DNA of 61,075 nucleotides, from contig JAUNUI010000009.1 in the NCBI GenBank assembly GCA_030538255.1, positions 40,524 through 101,598 of the forward strand. Reading direction: 5' to 3'. The first letter of the stretch is position 1, and each line of letters starts with the position of its first letter. The position numbers and the translations under genes are program-made. Under the pieces are notes generated by a model, which saw only the letters and a program-made list of their open reading frames with translations, made no database searches and was not told where the DNA came from. Origin of the DNA: Pelistega sp. Lineage in GTDB: Bacteria > Pseudomonadota > Gammaproteobacteria > Burkholderiales > Burkholderiaceae_B. Positions 1,578 through 35,514 of the stretch are shown here, piece by piece.

Positions 1578-4500
1578 ATTTTTCGCGCCAATTTATCCTT
1601 CGTCCAGTAGCCACGACTTTGCTGATGATTGCATTGGTCATCGGAGGTTTTTTAGGTTATAAACAACTGCCCGTATCGGCGCTACCTCAGGTAGACTATC
1701 CAACCATTCAAGTCTTAACGTATTACCCAGGCGCGGGACCCGAGGTCATGGAGTCTTTGGTGACGAGCCCATTGGAGCGGCAGTTCGCCCAGATGCCTGG
1801 TTTAAGCTTAATGCGATCGTCCAGCTCAGCAGGGATTTCGGTGATTACCTTACAATTCTCCTTGAATTTAGAGATGAGTGTGGCCGAGCAACAAGTACAG
1901 GCTTCTATGGATGGTGCGCGCAACCTCTTGCCTTCGGACTTACCCAGCCCGCCCGTGTATAACAAGGTGAATCCCGCTGATACGCCCGTCATGACGCTAG
2001 CGATTACTTCGCCTACCTTGCCCTTATATGAAGCGCGTGACTTGGTCGAGACACGGGTAGCGCAGAAAATTGCTCAAATTGAAGGAGTGGGTCTCGTCAG
2101 TATTTCTGGGGGGCAAAAGCCAGCGATTCGGGTTCAAGTCAATCCGCAAGCACTTGCGGCGAATAACTTAAGCTTGAATGATATTCGTAGTGCGATTAAT
2201 TCTGGCAATATTAATGCCCCTACGGGAACCTTCGATGGGCCACAGCGTTCGACCACGATTTATACCGATGGGCAATTGCGTAGCCCAGAACAATACAAAG
2301 AGTTAATCCTGCGCTATCAGGATGGCACCGCCTTGCGTCTACAGGATGTGGCGGATGTGGTGAATGATGCCGAAGATATTCGCCAAGCGGCTTGGGTGGG
2401 TACTACTTCAGCTATCTTATTAAATATTCAACGTCAGCCGAATGCGAATGTGATTCAGGTAGCGGAGCAAGTACATAGTCTATTGCCCAGCTTACAACAA
2501 AGTCTCCCTAGTTCCATTGGTCTAGAGGTCGTCTCAGATCGTACCGTCTCAGTTAAGCAATCCATTCAACATGTGCAGAATGAGATGCTGATGGCGATTG
2601 GCTTAGTGGTCTTGGTGACATTTGTATTCTTACGCAGCTTTAGTGCCACTGTGATTCCATCGGTAGTGGTGCCTTTATCGATTGTGGGCACCTTCGCCAT
2701 TATGTATTTCTTGGGCTTTAGCCTAAATAATCTGTCCTTAATGGCGCTGACCATTGCCACTGGTTTTGTGGTGGATGATGCGATTGTGATGATTGAGAAT
2801 ATTGCTCGTCATGTGGAGGAGGGTGAGTCACCCATGCAGGCGGCACTCAAGGGTGCGAAGGAAATAGGTTTCACCTTGATTTCATTAACCGTCTCTTTAG
2901 TGGCGGTTCTGATTCCCTTATTATTTATGGGGGATGTGATTGGTCGCTTATTTCGAGAGTTTGCCGTGACCTTAGCGATGGCGATTATGCTCTCCCTAGT
3001 CATTTCCTTGACCCTTACGCCGATGATGTGCGCACGTATGCTCAAACCTGAGCATGAGCAGAAGCAATCAGCGCTCGCCCGCTTCTTATCGCGCCAAATT
3101 GATCATGTGATTGTTGGCTATGACAAGTTACTCCAAGTGGTTTTGCGCCATCGCTTTCTGACGCTGATGGTGGCCATTGCGACGCTTGTGCTCACGGCAT
3201 TCATGTATATCGCCATTCCTAAGGGCTTCTTCCCCTCACAAGATGCAGGCATGATTCAGATTATTACTGAGTCACCGCAATCGGCTTCTTTCCGTAATGT
3301 TTCTGAGCGTCAGTTAAAAGTAGTCGAGGTGATTCAGCAAGACCCCGCGGTCGCGAGTGTTTCTTCGTTTGTTGGCGTGGATAGTAATAATGCTACCTTG
3401 AATACGGGACGTATCTTAGTGCAATTGCATACCGACCAAGCACGCGATGAGATGAGTGTGGTGATGCAGCGCTTAGAGGAAAGCTTAAGTCAGATTGATG
3501 GTATTCAGAGCTTTATGCAGGCGGTGCAAGACTTAACCATTGATACCCAACTCTCCAGAACCCAGTATCAGATGACCATGGGGGCAGTCGATAATCATCT
3601 CCTAGAGACCTGGGTGCCACGCTTTGTTGATGAAATTAAGCAAATCCCCGGGCTTTGGGGGGTAACTGATAATTTCCAGACCAATGCGGCCCAGTTGAAT
3701 GTGGTGCTAAATCGTGATCGTGCCAGTCAGCTAGGCGTGAGTATGTCGGCGGTGGACGAGGCTTTATATAATGCCTTCGGTCAGCGCTTGATTTCGACGA
3801 TTTTTACTCAGTCGGCACAATATCGTGTGATTCTTGAAGTGGCACCAAATTTCCGTCAAAGTCCCGCTGACTTAGAGTCAGTCTATGTACAAGGTCGCGA
3901 TGGCTTGATTCAATTGACGCAAATTGCCAGCATTGAACCTAGTCGTGCGCAATTAGAGATGCAGCGCTTACAGCAATTTCCAGCCGCTCTGATTTCATTT
4001 AATATTGAACCAGGTTATTCTTTATCGGAAATTACACCGCAGTTATTTGAAGTCGCCAAGCAGATTCAGATGCCTGCGACGATTGATTTGCAACTCCAGG
4101 GTTCTGCCTTAGCATTCGAGCAGTCTTTAAGTAATACCTTATGGTTATTATTGGCCGCCATCTTCACTATGTATATTGTCTTGGGCGTATTGTACGAGAG
4201 CTATATACATCCCGTCACGATTCTCTCTACCTTACCATCAGCCGCTGTCGGCGCCTTATTAGCCTTAATGCTAACCGACCGTGACCTTGATATGATTGGC
4301 ATTATCGGTATTATTCTCTTAATCGGTATTGTGAAGAAGAATGCGATTATGATGATTGACTTTGCCTTGCATGCTGAGCGAGAGCAAGGTTTGGCGCCAT
4401 TAGAGGCGATTCATCAAGCAGCGCTTTTGCGTTTTCGACCTATCTTAATGACCACTTTAGCGGCACTATTTGGGGCGATTCCGCTGATGCTTTCCACAGG

Positions 4501-18244: not shown

Positions 18245-18288
18245 AATAACGGTGTACTGAGTGATTAACTTAGTACACCGTTATTTTG
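18245..18288 (+). terminator. Terminator after ilvD
   Basis: A perfect 14-bp stem (18245-18258 with 18272-18285) is followed by a TTATTTTG tract. It closes the ilvD transcript. The remaining 200 bases up to the HicB gene show no gene. Confidence 0.88.
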
Positions 18289-30841: not shown

Positions 30842-30874
30842 AAAAAAAACGCCGCTCACAAGTCATGAGCGGCG
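30842..30874 (-). terminator. Terminator after rpmA
   Basis: On the minus strand CGCCGCTCA pairs with TGAGCGGCG (30874-30866 with 30858-30850), then TTTTTTTT. It separates the ribosomal protein genes from obgE. Confidence 0.88.
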
Positions 30875-30897
30875 ATTTTATATGTTTCTAATTGCGC

Positions 30898-31488: not shown

Positions 31489-31648
31489 ATGGGTAACCTC
31501 TAAATTTAAAAGAAAGAGTACTCGAGTTTACTGTGATAAATTAAGGGCGCGATTTCATTTCGCACAACTTTCAATCACTGGTTTCAATTACAAGAGTACT
31601 AGTTTGCTTATTGCAATTTATCGCAATGAATATATTGCAACGTAATGA

Positions 31649-31673
31649 CTTACTAGGGAAATTCACTAGTAAG
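31649..31673 (-). other. Hairpin at the 5' end of the rplU leader
   Basis: CTTACTAG (31649-31656) and CTAGTAAG (31666-31673) form a perfect 8-bp stem at or next to the predicted transcription start. The leader also has repeated TTGCAAT/ATTGCGA elements around 31610-31640 that could pair. Confidence 0.5.
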
Positions 31674-31679
31674 CCTTGC

Positions 31680-31709
31680 ATTATAACCATTAATTTGGCA
31701 AAAAGTCAA
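31680..31709 (-). promoter_or_regulatory. Promoter of rplU-rpmA
   Basis: On the minus strand -35 TTGACT (31709-31704), 18-bp spacer, -10 TATAAT (31685-31680). Predicted transcription start is near 31673. Confidence 0.7.
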
Positions 31710-31846
31710 ACAAATCAATTCCTTGGCTTCAGAGGTGTGGTTTTTTGGAGGTATCAGTGACTAACAAGTGAAGGCGTATTTTTAGCAAATAGCGGGAATA
31801 GACCACTTACCTAAACCAGGAGCTATGGGAGATTATCTAGATATTA

Positions 31847-32200
31847 GCGTAAACCAGCGATTGTTTATGGGGTTAAAGTGCCAGATGAAACGGGTCAGCT
31901 GATAACATATAGCCTACGTAATGGCTTGTTAATAAGAATAGATTTGCAAAAAAAGTCACATTGTTTCAATCTCAATATGGTCGCTATTTGTCGAATCATA
32001 CCTATACGATTAATGGCTATATCTATAAGACCGATGCGCAAGGTCGGGTTGTGTCTGTAGAAGGGCAGCTGAGCTTGAAGACGCAGAAAAACCCAAGTAC
32101 TCGTCATCAGACAGCACAATGCGCACACGCCAAGCAAGATGGAAGCAGAGTATCAACCTCACTTGAAAGAAAGCCGCGAATCAGACAGACTCCACAATAA
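31847..32200 (+). pseudogene. Frameshifted remnant resembling a polymorphic-toxin nuclease domain
   Basis: One frame reads YGVKVPDETGQLITYSLRNG and then, at an A7 run (31947-31953), continuity moves to another frame reading SNHTYTINGYIYKTDAQGRV followed by VSVEGQLSLK. The second part resembles the entry of DNA/RNA non-specific endonuclease domains (Endonuclea_NS_2 type) found at the C-terminus of secreted toxins. No start codon, export domain or intact catalytic core is present. The call of a decayed toxin tip is inference. The bases from 31741 to 31846 show no gene. Confidence 0.4.
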
Positions 32201-32208
32201 GTCTTAGC

Positions 32209-32370
32209 TTAATTAGTCAACTTCATTAATCGACCCTGACCATCAAACTCAGCATGAATCGTCTCTTGCCCCTGAGTTCCAATGATGGAATTAGCATCGC
32301 TGCTTGAGAGCTTATAGCCCTTAGCAAGTAAGTAATGCTTTAAAGCGGATTTGTGATTCAGGTCAAACTG
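32209..32370 (-). pseudogene. Start-less open fragment, possible gene remnant
   Basis: A 53-codon open stretch on the minus strand reads KSALKHYLLAKGYKLSSSDA and ends ETIHAEFDGQGRLMKLTN. A TGA lies directly in front and no usable start codon is found, so it is not expressed as such. I do not recognise the family. It lies directly behind the toxin-like remnant, so a lost immunity or toxin piece is possible. The bases from 32371 to 32569 hold nothing recognisable. Confidence 0.25.
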
Positions 32371-32569
32371 TCATATATTTGAAACATATTAAGGGGCTAA
32401 GCGGATTGCTATTAGTAGATTTGAGGAGCTAGTATCTTTGCTCGCTTCTTAGTGTGTAATGGGTTTTGCCAATCTCTGTATTGTTAGCAAGTCTTGTATC
32501 GGAGAAAGTTATCCTAGCTAATTTAATAAATCTCAATTCATCTACATCAATATTAAAGTTTGTTTTATT

Positions 32570-32604
32570 CAATAGATAATCTGCTTTTTGTGGATTATCT
32601 ATTG
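32570..32604. repeat. Inverted repeat upstream of abiE (putative AbiEi operator)
   Basis: Perfect 12-bp arms CAATAGATAATC (32570-32581) and GATTATCTATTG (32593-32604) with an 11-nt spacer. The right arm overlaps the predicted -35 of abiEi. The same core reappears downstream of the toxin gene. Confidence 0.8.
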
Positions 32605-32637
32605 TAAATAATGAGTATTTGAGTTAAAATAAAGCGT
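32602..32637 (+). promoter_or_regulatory. abiE promoter, immediately before the start codon
   Basis: -35 TTGTAA (32602-32607), 17-bp spacer, -10 TAAAAT (32625-32630), only 7 bases before the ATG at 32638. No Shine-Dalgarno sequence fits between, so the transcript may be leaderless. Confidence 0.55.
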
Positions 32638-33276
32638 ATGAAAACCATAGAACTGAGAAACGCTCTGCCGCTATCGCTTATTACCCATGATATGCTTGCT
32701 GGCCTACTGGGAAACGAGCTGAGTAACGTTAACGATAAGATCTTCAAACTTGTCAATAACGGTGACTTAATTCGTCTTAAAAAAGGCTTCTATGTTTTTG
32801 CTAAGCACTATCAAGCTCATCCCTTTGACCTGATTGCCATCGCTAATGGTTTATATGCGCCTTCGTATGTGTCATTCGAGTATGCTTTAAGTTTATACGG
32901 AATGATTCCAGAGCGAGTATATGAGATAACATCCGCCACCTATAAGCATAATAAAATTTTTGATACGCCTGTAGGTCGATTTAGTTATCAGAAAATCCCT
33001 CTTAACGCATATGCATTAGGGGTGGATTGGGATTATGATGAAGTGGAAGGAGGTCGATTTATCGCTACCGCCGAGAAAGCTTTATGCGACAAGATTAGAT
33101 ACGATAAGGGCATTGGTACCTTATCGCAGAAAGCAATGTTGGAGTATCTATACGAAGATCTACGAATTGAGTTTCTTAAGCCATTAAATATAGAATGGAT
33201 ACGTCACATTGCTCAAGCCTATGGTTCTCGCAACTTAAGAACCTTAGCCACTGTCATCGAAAAGGAACAACAATGA
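32638..33276 (+). CDS. abiEi: AbiEi family antitoxin / transcriptional regulator
   Basis: Antitoxin of a type IV (AbiE) system, 212 aa. The N-terminal winged helix-turn-helix (about 10-60, with NDKIFKLVNNGDLIRLKKGF) should bind the operator repeats. The C-terminal antitoxin domain contains PSYVSFEYALSLYGMIPERV and TAEKALCDKI, typical of AbiEi_4-like proteins. The stop overlaps the toxin start in ATGA, so the pair is translationally coupled. The module is AT-richer than its surroundings, suggesting acquisition. Confidence 0.87.
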   Translation: MKTIELRNALPLSLITHDMLAGLLGNELSNVNDKIFKLVNNGDLIRLKKGFYVFAKHYQAHPFDLIAIANGLYAPSYVSFEYALSLYGMIPERVYEITSATYKHNKIFDTPVGRFSYQKIPLNAYALGVDWDYDEVEGGRFIATAEKALCDKIRYDKGIGTLSQKAMLEYLYEDLRIEFLKPLNIEWIRHIAQAYGSRNLRTLATVIEKEQQ

Positions 33277-34160
33277 GTTATCGTGCGCTGACTAAGATGC
33301 TTGAAAAATATGATTTATCGAGTGCAGATGGTAGCTATGATGCATTACGCGAAGTCTTGCAAGAAATAGTCTTGCTTGGTCTTTATGATGCTGGATTCTT
33401 TAAACATGCGGCTTTTTACGGTGGTACGGCTTTACGGATTTTGCACCAGCTACCTCGATTCTCTGAAGACCTAGACTTTTCATTGATGAAGGCGGATGAA
33501 GAGTTTAATTTAACGTCCTATCAAGAGGCCATTATCGATGCCCTTAGATCTTATGGTTTTGAGGCGAGTATAGAGATTAAGAAGAATGCGGAGAATAGTG
33601 CCATTGCTTCAGCTTTTGTAAAGAGTAATACCTTAAAAAACTTGATTAATATTAATGCGCCAGCGACAATAAGCAATAAAGTCCATAGAGATCAAACCAT
33701 CAAAATAAAGCTTGAAGTTGATACGAATCCGCCGCTATCCTTCACGACAGAAAATATCATCAGATTAAGCCCCAGAGCGTATAGTATTAATGCTTTTACC
33801 TTAAATAGTTTATATGCAGGAAAAATGCACGCTATATTGTGCCGTGCTTGGGGGAATCGACCAAAAGGTCGCGATTGGTATGACTTGGTTTGGTACGTCG
33901 CCAATGGTGTAAAGCTCGACCTAACTCATCTTCAAGCCAGATTAGAGCAAAGTTGCAAGTATTTAGAAAGTCAGGATATCAGTATTCCAATTAATCTGGA
34001 TAGGCAGAAAGTGCTCGTCTTATTAAGGCAGAGACTAACAACGCTTGATATTGCTAAAGCGAAAACAGATGTTCAACCTTTTATCAAGGACATGCGTGAG
34101 CTAGATCTGTGGTCGCATGCGTTTTTCAATACGGTCATTAATGAGTTGCAGACTGATTAA
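33273..34160 (+). CDS. abiEii: AbiEii/AbiGii family nucleotidyltransferase toxin
   Basis: 295-aa toxin of the DUF1814/AbiEii family, a nucleotidyltransferase fold. Motif I is YGGTALRIL and the catalytic acidic motif RFSEDLDFSL; the conserved third motif is RPKGRDWYDLVWY. All are intact, so the toxin looks functional. The start is ATG 33273 (MSYRALTK), overlapping the antitoxin stop; a longer in-frame start inside abiEi is unlikely. AbiE systems give phage exclusion in other bacteria. Directly after the stop there is a 24-bp perfect hairpin. Confidence 0.87.
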   Translation: MSYRALTKMLEKYDLSSADGSYDALREVLQEIVLLGLYDAGFFKHAAFYGGTALRILHQLPRFSEDLDFSLMKADEEFNLTSYQEAIIDALRSYGFEASIEIKKNAENSAIASAFVKSNTLKNLININAPATISNKVHRDQTIKIKLEVDTNPPLSFTTENIIRLSPRAYSINAFTLNSLYAGKMHAILCRAWGNRPKGRDWYDLVWYVANGVKLDLTHLQARLEQSCKYLESQDISIPINLDRQKVLVLLRQRLTTLDIAKAKTDVQPFIKDMRELDLWSHAFFNTVINELQTD

Positions 34161-34163
34161 GCC

Positions 34164-34216
34164 CATTATTTGAAATAGATAATCTGCAAAAAGCAGATTA
34201 TCTATTTCAAATAATG
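34164..34216. repeat. Perfect 24-bp hairpin downstream of abiEii, matching the upstream operator
   Basis: Arms 34164-34187 and 34193-34216 are exact reverse complements with an AAAAA loop. The central AATAGATAATCTGC and GATTATCTATT equal those in the repeat before abiEi. No T-tract follows on the plus strand. It ends 5 nt before the stop of the converging DUF1853 gene. Confidence 0.9.
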
Positions 34217-34221
34217 ACATT

Positions 34222-35514
34222 CTACCACTCGCTTGGCACCACAAACCCTCTATGAACTTCATGCCATTGCCCCGATGTCTGCTTATCTTCTTGTAACGCC
34301 ACGACTAATTGCGGTTGTGGGGTTTCTTCTTTTTCTTTAAAAAAGGTCCAGTTCTCTTGGATGGTCTCCCATAACTTAGTCCCCGTTAAGGTTTCCGCAT
34401 AGGCGCAACGATGCGGGCTTAACCACTGTAGGCGCGGCAGGATTTTCCAGCGCCAGGGCTGATTTGCCTGTTCCTGCTGCGCAAGATGTTGCTCAAACTC
34501 ATCTTGTAATAACCACCAACCACGCAAATGGTGTGGGTTCAGTAAAGCGCTTACTTGAGACTCAGGTAAATAATAGCTGCTCCAGTCTTCTGCGTGTTGT
34601 GGGCGCAAGGGATAGAATAGCCACCCTTTAATGTAGTAGGCGGATTGATGTATCTCTTGCTGTAGGGTTGCTCTGACTTGCGGGTGTTGCGCTAACGGGA
34701 GTTGACGCTCTTGAAGATGATTTAATTTGCGATAGAGTGTGTCAATTCTTTGGGTACCCACAAAGCGGTCTAATGGGGTGAGGATAGATGCTGCCTCTAT
34801 GCTTACTTGAAAGTCACTTGTCCCTGAGCCACTTAAGATAATCTCGCTAAGCTCCACTGGACTTGCTTGAGTTGCACTTAACTCAGTCTTGCTTAACTCT
34901 ACACGACTACTTTTGGACGGTAATAATTGAATCGGCCGTTCGGGGGGGAAATTAGGTGGAATATACAGATACAGCTTAACGGCTAATTCCCAATGATGCA
35001 CTTCACCGCTTAAGGTGTCACGCCAGACATAATCTAATTCACCAATGGTACGCTTGCCTTTGTTCTTATGTTTAGCCTTATGTTGCTTGTCGTGCTGAGG
35101 TTCTGTGCTTATCTCTTCATGAGCGGGCTTGCAGCCAACTTGCTTAAGTTGATTATCCGCGTGATCAGTGCTCTGCTGACTATCTGACGCGCACGCTAAG
35201 TCCTCTTGTAGGGGGAAGTGCTGTAGCAGCAATTCGGTCTGTGCGCTATGCTCTAGGGCTAGGCGTAGCAAGGATTCTGCATATAAGCCCAAGCGGCGAT
35301 AAGTTGTGGCAAAGTCATTGGTTAAAAGCCTAGGTTCACGCGCTTCTTGTTTAAGCCAATGATGGATTGCCGCGGCTTGTGTGGGGGTAAACTCTGCAGC
35401 ACCGTAGCCGGCAAGTTCTTCAACTAGACTGGGTGAATTCAGCAGCCAGTGAAGATCTCGCCAAGCTTGTGTGTCGTAGTCTCTACGAGCGGTAGTCGGC
35501 ATTAATGCTGACAT
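34222..35514 (-). CDS. DUF1853 family protein
   Basis: 430-aa protein of unknown function. Conserved DUF1853 parts are GELDYVWRD (about 158-166) with [12 protein letters not shown] (173-184), and FYPLRPQ further on. The acidic D161 and E176/K180 spacing resembles a PD-(D/E)XK nuclease core, but this is inference. Residues about 103-156 (charged, Gln/His/Lys-rich) and 200-232 (repeated VELS/TELS) are low-complexity insertions. It overlaps the argJ end by 32 nt. Met5 is an equally possible start. Confidence 0.75.

Follow-up and report, generated by a model that had tools for sequence, protein, structure and literature searches.

The window, by which we mean the whole 61,075-nucleotide stretch of Pelistega sp. 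DNA that was analysed, encodes an AbiE type IV toxin-antitoxin pair between rplU, identified by Pfam L21, and a convergent DUF1853 gene. The module itself is ordinary; what is unusual is a duplicated, possibly functional operator behind the toxin gene. The features are as follows.

31510..34234, no strand: stretch that cannot be aligned to the same-genus genome G006; contains abiE and both palindromes
32571..32603, no strand: putative AbiEi operator core, AATAGATAATC-N11-GATTATCTATT; the same 22 fixed bases occur at Bacteroidota abiEi genes and the same 20 inner bases in a genome of the same family
32602..32630, plus strand: putative abiE promoter, TTGTAA, 17-nt spacer, TAAAAT; a consensus match only
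32604..32613, no strand: right flank of the operator, GTAAATAATG, the outer dyad arm on the promoter side; 8 of 10 bases common to the downstream copy
32638..33276, plus strand: abiEi, antitoxin/repressor, 212 aa
33273..34160, plus strand: abiEii, nucleotidyltransferase toxin, 295 aa (Pfam AbiEii 1e-30; PADLOC AbiEii 6.8e-106)
34164..34216, no strand: perfect 24-5-24 palindrome resembling the operator, downstream of abiEii and in inverted orientation to the upstream copy
34222..35514, minus strand: DUF1853 gene, convergent with abiEii (Pfam PF08907, 6.8e-52)

The AbiE module named in the original prediction was confirmed by the Pfam score of AbiEii, 107.9 bits against a cut-off of 22.5, by its PADLOC match, and by the fold of AbiEi, which combines an N-terminal winged helix with a C-terminal antitoxin domain. 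A fold search of the PDB with the predicted AbiEi model had as its top match 6y8q, the AbiEi of S. agalactiae, whereas phmmer returned no match to PDB sequences for AbiEi or AbiEii. The genes overlap at ATGA (33273-33276), in an apparently bicistronic antitoxin-toxin order, and the inverted repeats expected of an abiE promoter are represented by a conserved dyad in the sequence. The -35 box of the putative promoter overlaps the end of the operator and its -10 box ends 7 nt before the ATG, but promoter-like pairs at the operator end are no commoner there than in shuffled sequences.

The upstream copy of the palindrome (32571-32613) and the reverse complement of the downstream copy (34164-34206) were found on recomputation to be identical at 39 of 43 bases, 20 of them consecutive, just as first described, and because the element is palindromic the copies also match at 35 of 44 bases in direct orientation. 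The description of the downstream copy as a perfect 24-bp hairpin held as well: its arms (34164-34187 and 34193-34216) pair at 24 of 24 positions around a 5-nt loop, compared with 17 of 24 arm pairs in the promoter copy, and it lies between the stop codons of abiEii and the DUF1853 gene, 3 nt from the first and 5 nt from the second. In a scan for arms of at least 13 pairs, loops of 3-15 nt and at most one mismatch it was the longest hairpin in the window, the runner-up having 18-bp arms with one mismatch. Common to both copies is a 33-bp operator core, beyond which the 24-bp arms of the downstream hairpin extend into the AAATAATG flank. Outside the two copies, no stretch of the window matched the 43-mer at more than 27 of 43 positions, and the 14-mer AATAGATAATCTGC, with up to one mismatch allowed, occurred at four places in the whole 2.95-Mb genome, three of them exact and inside the two copies and the fourth elsewhere with one mismatch.

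The variable spacer between the half-sites is common to both copies at 9 of its 11 positions, which favours duplication over convergence. The copies differ at four positions, none of them among the 22 half-site bases (P = 0.048 when counted as four events, 0.23 as two), a weak test because the differences form two adjacent pairs. We read the match as far too good for chance and the copies as a lineage-specific duplication rather than a coincidence.

Comparison with other genomes strongly supported the proposal that the upstream copy is an AbiEi operator, and we assign it that role because its fixed bases recur at abiEi genes. A search of 84,980 species genomes for the exact pattern of 22 fixed bases gave 12 places, all of them in organisms that we take to be Bacteroidota. 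Ten of these adjoin an AbiEi homologue with 38-43% identity, although in one (L016) the gene is interrupted, and another (L020) adjoins a truncated abiEi; beside the exact operator of L017 (653-685) no abiEi remnant was visible, and that genome had no AbiEii match. The L017 operator adjoins an N-terminal fragment of HipA. When the pattern was relaxed, 20 sites were found in 18 of 395 Bacteroidota genomes, and all 18 sites whose neighbourhoods were examined adjoin the N-terminus of an abiEi gene, intact or decayed. The operator palindrome is kept beside a truncated or decayed abiEi in L077, L078, L084, L088, L090, L091 and L020 of the Bacteroidota, with one base changed in L077.

In 268 genomes of the window's own family, the 20-base inner site had exact matches at just two loci, this one and the abiEi of G904, the closest homologue found (AbiEi 73% identity), which has the same inner bases and perfect arms of 26 bp. 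Among 49 relatives, 40 carried the core operator upstream of abiEi within 5 of 20 mismatches and the remaining nine had no recognisable core there (more than 5 of 20); this set leaves out L046 and L072, where the AbiEi or AbiEii match was missing, and L043, which is the same locus as L041. An orphan antitoxin was seen in L110 (3060-4009), where an AbiEi homologue (73%) retains an intact operator and abiEii is lost after about 12 codons; it lies between two similar terminator-like hairpins (2859-2898 and 3759-3797).

The dyad axis and the inner box TAGATAATC are conserved from locus to locus. In 20 representatives the outer arms were symmetric within a locus at 7.9 of 14 positions, against 5.5 of 14 when arms were swapped between loci (0 of 10,000 permutations), which fits two half-sites that would be read by one co-evolving repressor; an alternative is correction of one arm by the other during replication. 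Five Arcobacter/Aliarcobacter plasmids, among the closest relatives by protein, all keep the axis and an outer CATTATTT on the left, and four of the five have an outer ATATAATG on the right. Because these operators also keep outer boxes, the downstream copy in the window, in which all four boxes are present, inner and outer, seems to be the operator at its most complete. In the window (32625-32640) and in all five of these plasmids (L021-L025, before 3366), 7 nt separate the end of TAAAAT from the abiEi ATG, a spacing that suggests a nearly leaderless abiEi mRNA. In three of them (L021, L023 and L024) a gene annotated as a helicase or as hypothetical begins 6 bp past abiEii on the same strand. 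The outcome is a precise prediction of the sequence recognised by AbiEi in a little-studied branch of AbiE, near-identical in Bacteroidota and in the window's family and degenerate in the Arcobacter relatives.

The closest described system is the AbiE of S. agalactiae, which, in the portions of the published accounts available, shares with the window the bicistronic antitoxin-toxin order, the wHTH antitoxin fold and a dyad with 23-24 bp arms over the promoter (PMC3985639, PMC7319586). S. agalactiae AbiEi is described there as binding 23-N3-23 repeats (PMC3985639, PMC7319586), to which the 24-N5-24 dyad of the window is close, but the conserved boxes are the inner ones in the window (11-N11-11) and the perfect boxes are the outer ones in S. 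agalactiae (11-N27-11). The same portions make no mention of a second operator behind the toxin gene (PMC3985639, PMC7319586). For Rv2827c/Rv2826c of M. tuberculosis, both repeat pairs are placed in tandem in the promoter, unlike the copy behind the toxin gene in the window (PMC7319586, in the part available).

Since the upstream copy has this comparative support as an AbiEi operator, the downstream copy is best described as a promoterless inverted duplicate of that operator, and not as an unrelated hairpin. It appears not to be a regular part of the AbiE family. No core operator was found within 300 bp behind abiEii in any of the 48 relatives whose 3' flank could be used (L049, lacking such a flank, was left out), the best candidate having 6 of 20 mismatches; a flank match of 27/33 in L040 was unrelated. 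It follows that no conserved function requires the downstream copy. The plasmid loci tested were 15 of 35 matches, 8 closer and 7 more distant, and the seven more distant ones had no bracket. Two distant loci on viral contigs, L118 and L119, recovered by an AbiEi alignment search, had no core operator upstream or downstream; the exact operator pattern occurred on no viral contig, a single-sequence AbiEii search of viral contigs gave no match, and AbiEi had no match in phages. Searched against plasmids, the downstream hairpin gave weak matches only, the best with an E value of 1.

A sequence-independent test, in which each locus's own best dyad was looked for behind abiEii in 58 loci, found a downstream operator copy in two of them, the window locus (0.81 identity) and L027 (0.92), the next value being 0.58. 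L027 is an abiE locus on a Phocaeicola massiliensis plasmid (OY726007.1), where a 355-bp piece from in front of abiEi is repeated directly, starting 118 bp past abiEii, and carries the second operator in direct orientation. In this second copy the promoter box after the operator is altered, and 21 of 24 arm pairs are formed, against 19 of 24 in the promoter copy. Both loci thus have a promoterless, more symmetric second copy of their own operator behind abiEii, but L027 differs from the window in operator sequence, in the direct orientation, in the 355-bp duplication and in the hipBA-like pair that follows. The L027 second operator precedes this hipBA-like pair. From these comparisons the downstream-operator arrangement seems to have arisen at least twice, by different routes.

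The original prediction proposed searching the genome and relatives for the repeat unit and held that the bracket would be coincidental if the hairpin were widespread without abiE or if relatives kept only the upstream copy. The hairpin is not widespread without abiE; relatives do keep only the upstream copy (0/48), so a conserved arrangement has to be given up. Coincidence does not follow, and there is one parallel, L027, with a different operator. In the portions of the literature consulted we found no AbiE system described with a copy of its operator past the toxin gene, which is not proof of absence.

Taken as a whole, the best explanation of the downstream copy is that it is a second AbiEi site acting with the promoter operator, to which we assign a probability of about 0.6. 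AbiEi, a winged-helix repressor as well as an antitoxin, would bind the dyad at 32571-32603 over the -35 box and repress abiEi-abiEii, and it would also bind the downstream palindrome. Binding at both sites is the most likely case because the downstream copy keeps both half-sites in a fuller dyad, and the preservation of half-sites between the copies weakly favours the same conclusion. The computations establish what the module is, which sequence is its promoter operator (through conservation), that this operator is duplicated and that such duplication is rare. We infer both the binding at 34164-34216 and its effect: the second site would add to the sites that AbiEi must fill before repression is complete, either as a sink or by forming a loop across 1.6 kb, and once filled it might block antisense transcription entering from the convergent DUF1853 gene. 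The second binding site for looping that was first suggested has thus become, as an operator copy, the leading reading, with looping, a sink and a roadblock as its candidate roles. S. suis AbiEi, in the available part of the report, is said to bind IR-like sites outside its own promoter, at oriT and the sezAT promoter, which makes binding at the downstream copy plausible (PMC11062541). The AbiE of S. suis ICESsuHN105 resembles the window in that AbiEi is reported on promoter IRs and at further sites elsewhere, but those further sites, oriT and another TA promoter, are unlike a copy behind abiEii (PMC11062541, in part).

Only tentatively would we generalise to the proposal that AbiE modules can acquire a promoterless, more symmetric auxiliary operator behind the toxin gene, arisen independently at least twice, which would give two-site control through looping or titration together with shielding from convergent transcription. 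If AbiEi uses the second site, type IV toxin-antitoxin autoregulation would be less uniform than the single-promoter model holds.

The main rival, conceivable although we consider it unlikely, is that the downstream copy is a relic without a role today, left behind passively by a duplication or rearrangement when the module was acquired, for example after loss of a second abiE unit. The absence of a downstream core from 48 of 48 relatives agrees with this, as does the L027 operator, whose place within the 355-bp direct duplication looks like tandem duplication and loss. A relic, however, would be expected to lose symmetry, and at both loci it is the promoter copy that is the less symmetric; moreover, the copy in the window is a perfect palindrome set 3 nt and 5 nt from the flanking stop codons with no gene remnant around it.

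Quite improbable is a role for the hairpin as RNA, in which an operator copy would have been built into a bidirectional transcript end or a stabiliser between the convergent genes. The hairpin lies exactly between convergent stop codons, a terminator scan lists no site between abiEii and the DUF1853 gene, and the predicted fold is very stable in both directions (-33.2 and -34.1 kcal/mol; z -13.6 for the -33.2 kcal/mol fold). It lacks, however, the make-up of an intrinsic terminator, a G+C-rich stem with T-run: neither strand has a T-run, which is why the hairpin is missing from the terminator scan. Two other long hairpins in the window (18245-18285 and 30845-30879) do open with A runs and close with T runs, the pattern of bidirectional terminators. 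The three Rfam matches, to microRNAs, scored far under the respective gathering thresholds.

The earlier suggestion of a mobile cassette, with abiE inside and the two copies as its terminal inverted repeats, is hardly credible: it would explain the inverted orientation (39/43) and the absence of the module from the same site in G006, but both copies are abiEi-operator sequence, none of the 48 relatives has such ends, the genome has no other exact copies, the only additional exact site in the family belongs to an abiEi promoter, the candidate target duplication is only 2 bp, and no transposase or integrase lies between the copies, where the frames of at least 70 aa are abiEi, abiEii and one 70-aa antisense frame. 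A mobile element with terminal repeats was rejected on the finding of a single copy in the genome, with no repeats at both ends of several copies there, in the 48 relatives or in the family scan. A dispersed repeat was likewise rejected, the palindrome being spread neither in this genome nor in the 268 family genomes.

In G006 the alignment breaks off near rplU and resumes in the DUF1853 gene after 117 bp that contain neither abiE nor the palindrome, and the best explanation appears to be acquisition of the abiE operon between these two genes. DNA may have entered this site on more than one occasion, because the extra 2.7 kb in the window also includes a nuclease-like gene fragment. This remnant (31961-32200) is a 79-aa fragment that matches Endonuclea_NS_2 (PF13930, 7.5e-7).

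Comparison of 1-kb flanks found a flank-to-flank repeat of at least 40 bits at 18 of 55 abiE sites, or 16 of 53 once L139 and L153 were dropped as contig-end artefacts (self-matches), and at 15 of 52 without the window locus. Control positions in the same stretches gave 17 of 864, but these positions overlap and come mostly from other chromosomal stretches, hence are not independent, and 8 control stretches had a match at 40 bits; some abiE sites, moreover, come from the same genome or are similar to one another (L135, L137). A cruder test of own against cross-locus flanks gave 13 of 56 with 0.5 expected, the L028 repeat being inverted and A/T-rich. That unrelated repeats bracket abiE modules at this rate adds to the case for a relic, and the enrichment may hold for accessory genes generally. 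The frequent flank duplications may tell how abiE modules enter genomes. The repeats (loci L120-L169 and L021-L027) are locus-specific, and the best repeat is direct in all except the window, which stands apart from the other sites: there the operator itself is what is repeated, in inverted orientation. Some of these repeats are located at the 3' end of a convergent host gene, namely relA/spoT in L133 and Ppx/GppA in L135 and L137.
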